Assembly: GCF_000331025.1 (NCBI RefSeq)
Contig: NC_020055.1
Coordinates: forward strand, 3,071,370 to 3,135,369
Length of the DNA: 64,000 nucleotides
Direction of reading: 5' to 3'
From: Maridesulfovibrio hydrothermalis AM13 = DSM 14728
Lineage (GTDB): Bacteria > Desulfobacterota > Desulfovibrionia > Desulfovibrionales > Desulfovibrionaceae
The notes under the pieces were generated by a model. That model was not told the DNA's origin, ran no database searches, and saw only the letters and a list, made by a program, of their open reading frames with translations. Both the position numbers and the translations under genes were made by a program. Positions 50,208 to 53,856 of the stretch are shown piece by piece. How positions within the stretch are numbered: the first letter of the stretch is position 1; the number at the start of each line of letters is the position of its first letter.

Positions 50208-50236
50208 AAAAAAAGCGGGACCGCAAGGATCCCGCC
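50208..50236 (-). terminator. Terminator of dsrC
   Basis: GCGGGACC pairs with GGATCCCGC (50215-50235) across a GCAA loop, with one bulged base. Seven T follow on the minus strand. Confidence 0.88.
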
Positions 50237-50261
50237 TAAATATTCTGCTAGCAGTCTGGAG

Positions 50262-50579
50262 CTATACGCAACCAGTAGGCTTAGGCAGACCAGCCATCTT
50301 ACAAGCTCCTTTACCGGGACCGGAAGGAAACAGTTCGTAGATGTGCTTCAGTTTGAAACCAGTTACTTTAGAAAGGATACGAACCATAGGAGCGATACCA
50401 TTCTTTTTGTAGTAGTCCTGCAGAAAGTCGATTACTTTCTGGTGCTCTTCGTTAAGTTCTTTAATGCCTTCGCCTTCTTTACAGAAGTCAACCCACTCAG
50501 GGCACCATTCTTCAAACTTAAGGAGGAAACCATCTTCATCAACGTCAAAGCTTTTGCCCATGAATTCTACGAGAGCCAT
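50262..50579 (-). CDS. dsrC: DsrC, sulfur-carrier protein of dissimilatory sulfite reduction
   Basis: The 105-aa protein of the DsrC/TusE family carries both conserved cysteines on its C-terminal arm: Cys93 (GKGACKMAG) and Cys104 (PTGCV, the penultimate residue). Both are required in true DsrC, which carries sulfur from DsrAB sulfite reductase as a trisulfide that the DsrMKJOP complex reduces. TusE-type relatives lack Cys93. It has its own promoter and terminator and a leader with two hairpins, and it lies downstream of a YcaO-methyltransferase pair on the same strand. dsrAB and dsrMKJOP are not in this window. Confidence 0.96.
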   Translation of the reverse strand: MALVEFMGKSFDVDEDGFLLKFEEWCPEWVDFCKEGEGIKELNEEHQKVIDFLQDYYKKNGIAPMVRILSKVTGFKLKHIYELFPSGPGKGACKMAGLPKPTGCV

Positions 50580-50615
50580 AATAATACTCCTAGGAATATA
50601 TAATTTACTAAATTA

Positions 50616-50666
50616 GGTTTCGACTGGGTCGAACCTGCCATATCCAAAAACAGCGATCCGCTGTTT
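50616..50666 (-). other. Two hairpins in the dsrC leader
   Basis: AAACAGCG / CGCTGTTT (50648-50666, 3-base loop) is followed on the minus strand by extra T. GGTTTCGAC / GTCGAACC (50616-50635) lies nearer the start codon. Both would be in the 5' untranslated RNA of dsrC if transcription starts at the promoter at 50717-50745. Confidence 0.6.
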
Positions 50667-50716
50667 CACGACTAATTTTTAAGTGCAAAAACCTCTATGC
50701 GTTTTTGCTCATAAAG

Positions 50717-50745
50717 CGATAATCTTTAAAACGCTTTCTTGTCAA
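50717..50745 (-). promoter_or_regulatory. Promoter of dsrC
   Basis: On the minus strand a perfect -35 TTGACA (50740-50745) is followed after 17 bases by TTATCG (50717-50722). The -10 is poor, so the exact position could shift by a base. It implies a leader of about 130 bases. Confidence 0.5.
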
Positions 50746-50782
50746 TGCAGTTCTTAATAAAGAAGCTTATAAAACTGCGTTT

Positions 50783-52510
50783 TTATTTACCAAGCAACTC
50801 TTCCAGATGATTACGGGCAAATTCAAGAGACGGGTCTAGCTCCAAAGCTGTGCTAAGGTATTCAATCGCGTCATCATTTTCGCCCATAAATTTATGGCAA
50901 AGTCCAAGATTGGCAAGGTCGGAGGCAGAGCCGCTGTCAAGCGCAAGCGCACTCTTGAAATCTACAGCTGCAAGAGCATATTCACCATTTTTGAATTTTG
51001 CCACGCCGCGCAGATTAAAGAATTCCTTAGCCTCATCATCAAACTCTATGGCCCGGTCGAGATAAGGAATAGCTTCAGACCACCTTTCTTCAAGGGACAT
51101 GGCATAAGCTGTATAAAAGGCAGATAAAGCCTTCTCCTCATCGGCAGGCTGCAACTCGGTGGCAACGGCGAACATATCAACCGCGCGGGAAGTATCACCG
51201 GCGCGCAGAGCTAGCATGCCTTCAAAAAAAGGAATAAAATAAGGTTCACCGTAAATATCTGAAATTACGTCAAGCCCATCTCCGGCAATATCAAGAGCTA
51301 CTTTCTCCGAAAGAATACGGCCGACAAAAAGCCCCAGACTTGCGTGCGGGGTACGCTCTCTGAAATGAAAACCGGGTACAAAATTATAGTTGGCAGGAAC
51401 GCCTAGTTCCGGATGCGTAGTATCTACGGAATACAGAGTATACCCCTGCTCCTCAAGTCTGGACGCAAAGAGCTTAAGCTCTTCATAAATATCATTGTGC
51501 TCCACTGAAGGCAGATTATCAAGCTTTACACAGCCGCCAGCCCCAAGCCAGCCAGTCTGCTCAATCTCAGTGAATTTCGGAAGTCCGGACGCCTCATAGA
51601 CACGGCCTGTTTCAAAATCACCGGCAAGCTGCGCCACTTCGGTAAAGGCCCTGATGGCCGCTTTACACGGAGAGGCAGAAGTACCGGCCGTGAAAACTAT
51701 TTCACTCATACCTGGAAAAGTAGACGGATCCCATGCGGTAACAGCAACGGTAGGCAGAGGCATCCCGAAGGAGAAGTCATTAATTATGTATTTGATCCCG
51801 TTATCGTCAAAACATTTGCAAAGTTCAGAAAGCACTTCATCTTCACATGAAGCAGGATCAATAACCGGAACCTCAGGGCGATCACGGTCAATTACAGCAC
51901 AGACATGTCTTTCCACAAGCTCACAGCCGCCCTGCAAAACAGACTCTTCCGGAGTATTTCCCGCAGAGGAGCCGTTGAATTCATTAAGGATCTTAAACCA
52001 GTCCAGCGGAATATACTCCGCCTCTCCGGTATGAACATTCAAGGCCGGATGAAAATGCCAGCGTACAAGGTCAAGAATAACCCGAGCCTTATCAGGCTCC
52101 ATCTCTTCACCCACGGATTGCAGAATTTTTTCAATAGAGATAACCTTTCCGGGCCAGAGCTGTTCTGCTTCACTGTAAGTAGCAAGGGTGAAATTTTCAG
52201 GAGTGTTCCAGAAACTGAAAAAACTGAACCTTTCAACAAGCTCCATAAGTGCAGAAGCTTCAGCCTGAGCAACGGAAGCACCTTTGCCCATCTGCTTGCG
52301 AGTCGGCATAATGTCTCGGGCAACATCTCCGCATTCACTGATAAATACGGGAATCCCCAAACGGCCGGTATCAATTTTTCTGGTGCATTTCAGAACACCG
52401 TTACACTTTTCATCAAGCAGCGCCTTAACTTTTGCAACAGTCTGCTCAGGGGATACAGCTTTGTCCTGATCCTTGGAATACGCTTTGGGACATGTTTTAA
52501 GCTTAAGCAT
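50783..52510 (-). CDS. YcaO-domain protein with C-terminal TPR repeats
   Basis: The 575-aa protein has the YcaO ATP-binding residues: GKGAS (75-79), the first ExxxxxExxER series (Glu84, Glu90, Glu93, Arg94), the second (CELVER, 196-201) and AIRAFTEVAQ (285-294). From about residue 425 to the end it has four TPR units. It lacks the C-terminal PxPxP of azoline-forming YcaO enzymes, and the layout is that of E. coli YcaO, linked to methylthiolation of ribosomal protein S12. YcaO enzymes use ATP to activate peptide-backbone amides. Its ATG overlaps the stop of the methyltransferase gene by one base, and dsrC follows 203 bases downstream. The substrate is unknown; S12 or a Dsr-related protein are candidates. 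Confidence 0.85.
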   Translation of the reverse strand: MLKLKTCPKAYSKDQDKAVSPEQTVAKVKALLDEKCNGVLKCTRKIDTGRLGIPVFISECGDVARDIMPTRKQMGKGASVAQAEASALMELVERFSFFSFWNTPENFTLATYSEAEQLWPGKVISIEKILQSVGEEMEPDKARVILDLVRWHFHPALNVHTGEAEYIPLDWFKILNEFNGSSAGNTPEESVLQGGCELVERHVCAVIDRDRPEVPVIDPASCEDEVLSELCKCFDDNGIKYIINDFSFGMPLPTVAVTAWDPSTFPGMSEIVFTAGTSASPCKAAIRAFTEVAQLAGDFETGRVYEASGLPKFTEIEQTGWLGAGGCVKLDNLPSVEHNDIYEELKLFASRLEEQGYTLYSVDTTHPELGVPANYNFVPGFHFRERTPHASLGLFVGRILSEKVALDIAGDGLDVISDIYGEPYFIPFFEGMLALRAGDTSRAVDMFAVATELQPADEEKALSAFYTAYAMSLEERWSEAIPYLDRAIEFDDEAKEFFNLRGVAKFKNGEYALAAVDFKSALALDSGSASDLANLGLCHKFMGENDDAIEYLSTALELDPSLEFARNHLEELLGK

Positions 52511-53229
52511 TACTTAGCCCCCATCCTGATGAGTGAAACAATGCTCTGGCCTTCTCCGTTATTTCCGACAAAAGGCACTTCCTGCTTCATCAGGCGATAA
52601 TTTTCCTTGGTCCCGTCAAAAAACTTTCTTCCGCTGCGTTTCTTGTCCATTGCCAAAAGCACTTCGGACTGCTTCCCTCCGGCAAGGTGCTTACCAAGAA
52701 ACACCGGAAGGGACTCAGCAACATCGTCACGGTGAAGTATTTCACAGCCCAGAATATAATTGAACTTTTCCGAAAGGTCAGTCTCTGAAAAACTAATTTT
52801 GCAAACCTTGATTTTATCTTCAAGATTGTTCCGCATGACATTAAGCCGTGCAAAAAGAAGAGCATCATCATCAGTATCAGCCAGAGTGACATTGAAACCT
52901 CTGCCAGCTGCAAGCATCCCGCACAGACCGCCATCAGTCCCAACCTCAAGAAATGAAGCATCCTCGACAGCCTTGAATTTCAATACGTAAAACCCGAGAA
53001 CAAGGCAGGAAGGCCATATTTTAGCCCAGAGAGGAAGATCAACCTTTTTTCCGCCTCTGGCTTTATCAACAAGACGATCAAGGTAAGCAGGCATATCGGC
53101 AACCTGTGCAAGCTCAAGCACATTATCGCCGACTTTTACTTCTTCAAATTTAATTGCGCCGAATTTATTACGCGCCGCCGCGAGAAGTTCATCAAACGTG
53201 GCATCAGATTTCAAGGCTATATTACTCAA
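52510..53229 (-). CDS. Class I SAM-dependent methyltransferase, Methyltransf_16-like
   Basis: The 239-aa protein has DLPLWAKIWPSCLVLG (about 64-79), the SAM-binding motif FLEVGTDGGLCGML (93-106), the acidic loop LADTDDDAL, and ILGCEILHRDD (159-169) at the motif IV position. The W-A-K-I-W-P start and this order are typical of the METTL21/EEF2KMT-type protein lysine methyltransferase family. The GTDGG loop is a variant of GxGxG. A one-base TAATG overlap with ycaO signals a joint job. Substrate unknown; a protein substrate is an inference from the family. Confidence 0.75.
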   Translation of the reverse strand: MSNIALKSDATFDELLAAARNKFGAIKFEEVKVGDNVLELAQVADMPAYLDRLVDKARGGKKVDLPLWAKIWPSCLVLGFYVLKFKAVEDASFLEVGTDGGLCGMLAAGRGFNVTLADTDDDALLFARLNVMRNNLEDKIKVCKISFSETDLSEKFNYILGCEILHRDDVAESLPVFLGKHLAGGKQSEVLLAMDKKRSGRKFFDGTKENYRLMKQEVPFVGNNGEGQSIVSLIRMGAK

Positions 53230-53412
53230 GAAATTCCTCCTTAGGGGTGTCCAAGGCTTAATTATATACAGTATAGATAAGAGTTATGAATAATTTCATC
53301 CCAAATTAGTATAGAACAAAACTCTCTATGCCGATGAGGAATAATCATTAACACTCAAGCGGTCAACACCCTTTGCAACAGATATAGCGTTGTCCGCTTA
53401 AATATAAGGAAT

Positions 53413-53456: not shown

Positions 53457-53531
53457 TGGAGCGGGAAACGAGATTTGAACTCGCGACTCCAACCTTGGCA
53501 AGGTTGTACTCTACCACTGAGTTATTCCCGC
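53457..53531 (-). tRNA. tRNA-Gly (GCC), copy distal to promoter
   Basis: The 75-nt minus-strand cloverleaf starts GCGGGAATAACTC and ends with an encoded CCA. The anticodon loop CTTGCCAA gives GCC, and the T arm has GAGTTCGAATCTC. Identical in sequence to the other two tRNA-Gly copies here. Confidence 0.97.
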
Positions 53532-53578
53532 GGATTGAAAATATTAAAAAGAACTCACTTCGATTCTGACCGAAGAAA

Positions 53579-53602
53579 GGGCCGATCATTACTGATCGAC
53601 CC
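53579..53602 (-). terminator. Internal, weakened copy of the tRNA terminator
   Basis: GGGCCGATCA / TGATCGACCC repeats the cluster's end terminator with one changed base (now a wobble pair). The T run on the minus strand is only TTTC, so read-through to the last tRNA-Gly is likely. Confidence 0.6.
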
Positions 53603-53612
53603 TGAAAATACA

Positions 53613-53687
53613 TGGAGCGGGAAACGAGATTTGAACTCGCGACTCCAACCTTGGCAAGGTTGTACTCTACCACTGAGTTATTCCCGC
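53613..53687 (-). tRNA. tRNA-Gly (GCC), middle copy
   Basis: A 75-nt copy identical to the neighbouring tRNA-Gly genes, with anticodon GCC and encoded CCA. The following hairpin is a decayed copy of the cluster terminator. Confidence 0.97.
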
Positions 53688-53691
53688 AATG

Positions 53692-53766
<75 letters not shown>

Positions 53767-53781
53767 TCAGAAAATTTTTGA

Positions 53782-53856
53782 TGGAGCGGGAAACGAGATT
53801 TGAACTCGCGACTCCAACCTTGGCAAGGTTGTACTCTACCACTGAGTTATTCCCGC
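53782..53856 (-). tRNA. tRNA-Gly (GCC), first copy
   Basis: A 75-nt copy identical to the other two, anticodon GCC, encoded CCA. It is first in the cluster, 18 bases after a consensus-like promoter. Confidence 0.97.

Follow-up and report, generated by a model that had tools for sequence, protein, structure and literature searches.

A YcaO-TPR protein that accompanies dsrA and often adjoins dsrC in Desulfobacterota: a candidate protein-modifying enzyme of sulfate respiration

Background

Why do a methyltransferase gene and a gene for a YcaO protein with tetratricopeptide repeats (TPR) lie directly upstream of dsrC? The question is raised by a stretch of 64,000 nucleotides from Maridesulfovibrio hydrothermalis AM13 = DSM 14728 (class Desulfovibrionia, phylum Desulfobacterota; contig NC_020055.1, positions 3,071,370 to 3,135,369), hereafter the window. 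A preliminary description of the locus had suggested that it might encode a protein-modification system with a tie to sulfate respiration, and the open reading frames (ORFs) bear out the gene order that it gave, all on the minus strand:

52510..53229, minus strand: methyltransferase gene (product of 239 aa, listed start TTG); PF10294, class I S-adenosylmethionine (SAM) fold
52732..52743, minus strand: methyltransferase motif E163xxH166 (ExxY in the class consensus)
50783..52510, minus strand: ycaO-TPR gene, 575 aa
51365..52291, minus strand: YcaO domain (ATP-dependent amide activation), residues 74-382, Pfam
51908..51967, minus strand: YcaO ATP-site motif SAGNTPEESVLQGGCELVER, residues 182-201
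50786..51235, minus strand: C-terminal helical TPR region of YcaO, about residues 426-575
50262..50579, minus strand: dsrC, 105 aa
50310..50351, minus strand: DsrC peptide LKHIYELFPSGPGK, residues 77-90, holding Lys78 and Gly89

The one-base overlap of the first two genes is likewise present, the minus strand reading AAGTAATGCT, and 203 bp separate the ycaO stop from the dsrC start.

Here, I show that YcaO-TPR was found exclusively in dsrA-bearing genomes of a phylum-wide sample and that its gene repeatedly adjoins dsrC outside the class. Both results strengthen the proposed tie, and YcaO is likely to serve sulfate respiration. The fuller reading, in which YcaO-TPR thioamidates DsrC in sulfate respiration and the methyltransferase serves the pathway as a tailoring enzyme peculiar to the class, is put forward tentatively, its chances being somewhat short of even.

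Distribution of YcaO-TPR

The phylum sample comprised 257 genomes, drawn evenly and at least 90% complete, in which YcaO was called at E 1e-40 or better and aprA was counted over its cut-off; YcaO was present in 97, dsrA in 129 and aprA in 101. All 97 YcaO-bearing genomes encode dsrA, and 91 encode aprA; none of the 128 dsrA-less genomes has YcaO. Genomes with YcaO span 34 families, those with dsrA and no YcaO 14 families, and a single family (f80) is mixed. Within the class, YcaO occurs in 273 of 348 genomes (205 of the 246 well-finished ones) and in 49 of 59 genera. The protein is full-length in 95 of the 97 genomes of the phylum sample; in the two exceptions, G385 and G469, a TPR-less relative is the only copy, and largely TPR-less relatives, covering profile positions 1 to 378-470 only, were also seen in G438, G441, G445, G420, G454 and G351.

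Several facts of this distribution weigh against the view that YcaO acts on DsrC. The Fisher p values of the phyletic profile (5e-43 and 7e-50) ignore phylogeny; 32 of the 129 dsrA-bearing genomes lack YcaO, ten of them having aprA. DsrC is near-universal in the class (244 of 246 well-finished genomes), about 40 well-finished genomes having it without YcaO and mostly with Gly89 and Lys78 kept, whereas aprA splits with YcaO, being present in 38 of 39 YcaO-bearing and 13 of 41 YcaO-less genomes tested. YcaO therefore goes with full sulfate respiration, not simply with DsrC, and since it tracks aprA in the class, its substrate could be in the sulfate-to-sulfite half of the pathway.

The corresponding alternative, which I regard as unlikely, is that YcaO and the methyltransferase modify AprA/AprB (or Sat), the proximity of dsrC being a loose clustering of pathway genes. 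In line with it, genus g189 of the mixed family includes a genome (G533) that lacks both aprA and YcaO and keeps dsrA and DsrC, whereas G514 and G552 have all of them. According to a 2011 study (PMC3125180), lysine methylation in D. vulgaris was found on ApsA, ApsB and DsrC, with trimethyl-lysine on AprA and AprB. There is also a genetic interaction with sat: deletion of sat together with DVU2210, a YcaO-TPR protein of D. vulgaris Hildenborough, gives molybdate resistance, as does the change S195R in the ATP site of DVU2210 (PMC7774982). On the other side, no aprA or sat family recurred among the neighbours of ycaO in the 40 loci described below, whereas dsrC did, and aprA is under its cut-off in 6 of the 97 YcaO-bearing genomes while dsrA is missing in none.

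DVU2210 is taken here as the ortholog of the window YcaO; in its quoted ATP motif, 17 of 20 residues are identical by eye. By its locus tag it lies far from the D. vulgaris dsrC (DVU2776), unlike the window ycaO. Two points speak against a direct part of the protein in sulfate respiration, namely that the single deletion grows on sulfate as the wild type and that the authors themselves doubt a direct action in sulfate reduction (PMC7774982). The phenotype is mild, as it is for the thioamide of the methanogen protein McrA, which is not needed on some substrates (PMC5589413). DVU2210 was also recurrently mutated in one syntrophy-evolved line (PMC8319347); a link between DVU2210 and DsrC is drawn neither in PMC7774982 nor in the passage of PMC8319347 that describes this line.

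Gene order within and outside the class

Across 60 YcaO-bearing class genomes from the six families, the methyltransferase gene lies directly upstream of ycaO in 49, always on the same strand, and dsrC directly downstream on the same strand in 42, two of which are at a contig end; both neighbours are found in 39 genomes, the methyltransferase alone in 10, dsrC alone in 3 and neither in 8. A class synteny control from one ORF caller, which saw YcaO in just 31 of 40 loci, was set aside for rates. Of 33 class loci scanned, 23 have a tRNA-Gly/tRNA-Cys cluster immediately upstream. Because the trio sits inside this larger, old and conserved tRNA block, synteny in the class is by itself weak evidence, which is a further point against linking the three genes by function.

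Taken to its end, this point becomes a second alternative: there is no functional link with dsrC, and the genes are merely part of an inherited block composed of dksA, tRNA-Gly/Cys/Gly, methyltransferase, ycaO and dsrC. Such an explanation is quite unlikely, for the pair of methyltransferase and ycaO persists in five class loci (L050, L059, L061, L064 and L065) from which dsrC and the tRNAs are gone, and outside the class dsrC adjoins ycaO without such tRNAs (the block was seen in none of the 17 non-class loci scanned) and also in reversed order.

Indeed, DsrC is the most frequent neighbour family of YcaO outside the class, occurring in at least 10 of 40 loci from 27 non-class families, with the next family in 6. 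The tally considered ORFs of at least 70 aa and families in at least 4 of the 40 loci, and it is a lower bound, since the ORF caller missed genes and three loci were left unparsed. On the same strand and within 500 bp, dsrC is upstream of ycaO in six genomes of family f21 (G515, G400, G429, G591, G362 and G495) and downstream in f35, f60, f66 and f87; it lies about 1 kb downstream in f96, and in f23 a divergent DsrC is encoded on the opposite strand. In the YcaO tree, f21, the group of f35, f60, f87 and f96, and the window's class fall in three separate parts (f66 is outside the tree). A second scan, restricted to the best 80 of 537 contig matches, nearly all from one phylum and with genomes partly shared with the first, placed dsrC at 18 of the 80 loci; it is downstream in 13 and upstream in 5, these five being labelled Desulfarculaceae or Desulfarculus. 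At most YcaO-bearing loci outside the class dsrC does not adjoin. The only label from another phylum noticed among these best 80 matches is that of a Coriobacteriia contig (L302) with a full YcaO-TPR relative, where misbinning is possible.

The three-gene order of the preliminary description is a trait of the class; outside it, the methyltransferase was found near ycaO in 0 of 23 loci and, in the second scan, in 0 of 80.

The YcaO enzyme and its probable chemistry

The window protein matches PF02624 with 186.2 bits (gathering score 25.7), carries TPRs at its C-terminus and contains the ATP-site motif Sx6-7Ex3Qx3ExxER. Its ATP-binding residues are kept, as had been described: all of 61 sequences have E189, Q193, E197, E200 and R201, and S182 is not invariant. 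Also as described, the PxPxP end is missing, both from the window protein and from the final 10 residues of every one of 61 relatives, and the azoline-type profile TIGR03604 scores 56 bits against a cut-off of 219. An in-frame TAG in the ycaO of G014 turned out to be an alignment that ran past the stop (a closed 572-codon gene was found; an in-frame TAG was also seen in G003).

The best family and fold match is the methanogen YcaO acting on McrA. TIGR03266, the profile for McrA-glycine thioamidation, gives 102 bits, far under its equivalog cut-off of 365, and is the top match, below cut-off, for 47 of 47 YcaO members. An AlphaFold2 model (mean pLDDT 95.2, pTM 0.91) has YcaO enzymes as its top Foldseek matches (E 4e-16), the methanogen MJ1094 (6pe3/6peu) first, then a cyanobactin heterocyclase and E. 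coli YcaO. The methanogen enzyme has a substrate that is central to energy metabolism, and some methanogens do without TfuA; the window YcaO differs in its added TPRs, in the lack of McrA and in its methyltransferase partner. A search for a tfuA partner found PF07812 in 1 of 80 YcaO-bearing genomes and none in the genome of the window; the single genome concerned has two TfuA-family genes (G064:C14 and C16). The window YcaO probably makes a thioamide.

The other close analogue is E. coli YcaO (PDB 4q84-4q86), which shares the C-terminal TPRs, the ATP motif and the absence of TfuA, and whose substrate is a folded protein, as is supposed for the window YcaO. According to PMC13063428, it thioamidates Met82 of uL16 with ATP, Mg and sulfide, without TfuA, whereas S12 methylthiolation is done by RimO and a role of YcaO in S12 is doubted. 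The S12 precedent invoked in the preliminary description is thus outdated, and S12 was rejected as a substrate of the window YcaO. That the window YcaO thioamidates uL16 or another ribosomal protein, in the manner of E. coli, is very unlikely. The architecture is the same, the ATP motif similar and the window protein fairly acidic; yet uL16 is universal while YcaO is confined to dsrA-bearing genomes in the phylum sample, identity to E. coli YcaO is about 21%, the E. coli-type profile NF040716 scores 43.5 bits against an equivalog cut-off of 700, and the family is less acidic (median pI 5.2, the window protein 4.6, vs 4.38 in E. coli).

An action of YcaO on a small molecule or on molybdate, as in the published futile-cycle hypothesis of adenosine 5'-molybdophosphate, would account for the resistance of the double deletion and S195R strains; it is scarcely probable, for E. 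coli carrying DVU2210 shows no molybdate sensitivity (PMC7774982) and known YcaO enzymes work on peptide backbones. Biosynthesis of ribosomally synthesised and post-translationally modified peptides (RiPPs), the activity of most characterised YcaO enzymes, with a short precursor encoded nearby, can hardly be credited here, as the tally of neighbours (ORFs of at least 70 aa, shorter precursors not being searched for) brought no conserved small gene to the fore and YcaO evolves slowly, with 49-75% identity across the class.

The methyltransferase

The methyltransferase matches PF10294 with 38.7 bits (cut-off 21), as do 41 of 41 members of its family, and its nearest solved structure is METTL21A (PDB 4lec; profile match 4.8e-21), so that the PF10294 match is common to it and to the METTL21-type lysine methyltransferases. 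It is unlike them in a conserved N-terminal extension and in reading ExxH where the class has ExxY; E163 is invariant in 41 sequences. A D/ExxY motif marks the PF10294 lysine-methyltransferase family.

Orthologs were called above 270 bits, every other match being at or below 94 bits. All 10 control genomes, which have the adjacent gene, gave the ortholog; it was missing from each of 41 well-finished YcaO-less class genomes and from each of 11 YcaO-bearing genomes lacking the adjacent copy. In its occurrence the methyltransferase depends on YcaO, and, not having been seen beside ycaO at the non-class loci scanned, it is a class-specific add-on to an older YcaO.

DsrC, its published peptide and Gly89

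The dsrC product of the window matches PF04358 (118 bits) and TIGR03342 (114.3 bits, cut-off 53.5), with the C-terminal pair Cys93 and Cys104. DsrC had been named among the possible substrates from the outset, and the adjacency of its gene, together with a published peptide, makes it a better candidate; the chances that it is the YcaO substrate are about even. The peptide of D. vulgaris DsrC, LK*EVYELFPSGPGK, appears as "Trimethylation+Oxidation" in Table 1 of the 2011 study, with the baits ApsA, CooH and RoO (ProtScore 1.7, 1.7 and 1.5; PMC3125180). It corresponds to residues 77-90, in the numbering of 2v4j_C, with LKHIYELFPSGPGK as its counterpart in the window DsrC, and is free of Met, Cys, Trp and His. 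The mass added is 15.977 Da for a thioamide and 15.995 Da for an oxygen; for LKEVYELFPSGPGK, the computed masses are 1621.866 with trimethyl and thioamide vs 1621.884 with trimethyl and O, 10.9 ppm apart. The Mascot precursor tolerance was 100 ppm, and the authors state that the accuracy was insufficient to tell trimethyl from acetyl (PMC3125180).

A lysine-methyltransferase-like gene and a ycaO gene in one operon would yield just such a pair of trimethyl and "+16", the paper itself assigning oxidation. In the mechanism proposed, YcaO-TPR would activate a backbone amide of DsrC with ATP, and one backbone oxygen would be replaced by sulfur; the sulfur could come from the sulfide of respiration itself, TfuA not being required. 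The candidate site is Gly89 in SGPGKGACK, at the base of the DsrC arm that carries sulfur to sulfite reductase. Thioamidation of McrA is on a glycine, too. The methyltransferase, for its part, would be a protein lysine methyltransferase acting on Lys78 of DsrC or on AprA/AprB; that it acts on DsrC, rather than on AprAB or another target, is possible and on balance doubtful. In its most specific form, the idea is that DsrC of sulfate reducers carries thioglycine at Gly89, made by YcaO-TPR with respiratory sulfide, and trimethyl-Lys78, made by the methyltransferase, the 2011 peptide being this pair misread; so complete a match is rather unlikely.

Gly89 is glycine in 82 of 82 DsrC sequences from YcaO-bearing genomes (41 class, 23 phylum and 18 contigs, with some overlap) and in 10 further such genomes. 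In YcaO-less class genomes, a set in which several of the later 7 are less than 90% complete, the position is Gly in 34 of 39, Ala in 2, Ser in 2 and Cys in 1; in dsrA-bearing YcaO-less genomes outside the class (32 in number, of which 24 were examined), it is Ala in 21 and Gly in 3. The contrast between Gly89 and Ala89 is confounded with ancestry. The Ala89 genomes have another type of DsrC, and the contrast is not simply one of reductive vs oxidative: their description as an "oxidative type" was dropped, dsrD being present in at least one such operon (L236, G505). In the same YcaO-less genome G505, the gene that directly follows dsrC of the dsrAB-dsrD-cobB-like-dsrC operon belongs to the OsmC family (L236:4581-4970); NCBIfam has an entry, TIGR03549, for fusions of OsmC with YcaO.

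Against thioamidation of DsrC at Gly89 stand the following points. The "+16" of the peptide could reflect a genuine oxidation, acetyl together with oxygen, carboxymethyl or some other artefact, and iodoacetic acid was allowed for in the peptide search, so that carboxymethyl is possible (PMC3125180). In-class departures from Gly89 (5 of 39 vs 0 of 51) reach p 0.013, uncorrected for 105 positions; within the class, the C-terminus of DsrC shows no clear trace of YcaO loss, and only the contrast between types is strong. The Gly89 comparison omits DsrC of YcaO-bearing genera without adjacency (e.g. g18, g24 and g12). Finally, the window YcaO and DsrC (pI 5.4) are both acidic, with no charge match of the kind seen between E. 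coli YcaO and the basic uL16.

Other features of the locus

The remaining features surround the three genes:

50740..50745, minus strand: TTGACA box in the ycaO-dsrC gap, a possible dsrC promoter, from sequence only
53261..53290, minus strand: promoter-like TTCATA-18-TATAAT upstream of the methyltransferase gene, by consensus match only
50213..50237, minus strand: terminator-like hairpin after dsrC, from the terminator scan
53457..53856, minus strand: tRNA-Gly, tRNA-Gly, tRNA-Cys and tRNA-Gly upstream of the methyltransferase gene, a block conserved in the class

That dsrC has its own promoter, as was first described, is plausible from the TTGACA box at 50745(-) and falls short of proof, the consensus scan giving for the gap a single 9/12 site (50623-50595(-)) and, region-wide, 12 sites vs 4.8 in shuffles. 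The terminator scan listed no hairpin between ycaO and dsrC; by eye, AACAGCG-GAT-CGCTGTT followed by T's, absent from that list, is seen at about 50643-50664(-). A second YcaO-domain protein of the same genome (L002, G000:C2:3161506-3162378) is encoded about 26 kb past the window; this protein, of 565-602 aa, has a long N-terminal region and matches PF02624 with 143.8 bits.

Conclusions

Sulfate respiration counts among the major routes of the sulfur and carbon cycles, and most of the proteins involved are believed to be known. YcaO-TPR, never found without dsrA in the sample and repeatedly encoded next to dsrC, appears to be an accessory component of it that has been overlooked. Were DsrC thioamidated by it, the molybdate and syntrophy-evolution phenotypes of DVU2210 and the odd DsrC peptide would be tied together, and the modification would be the third known protein thioamide, after those of McrA and uL16. 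The product of the pathway, sulfide, would then be fed back into its own carrier protein, in parallel with the thioglycine of methanogenesis.

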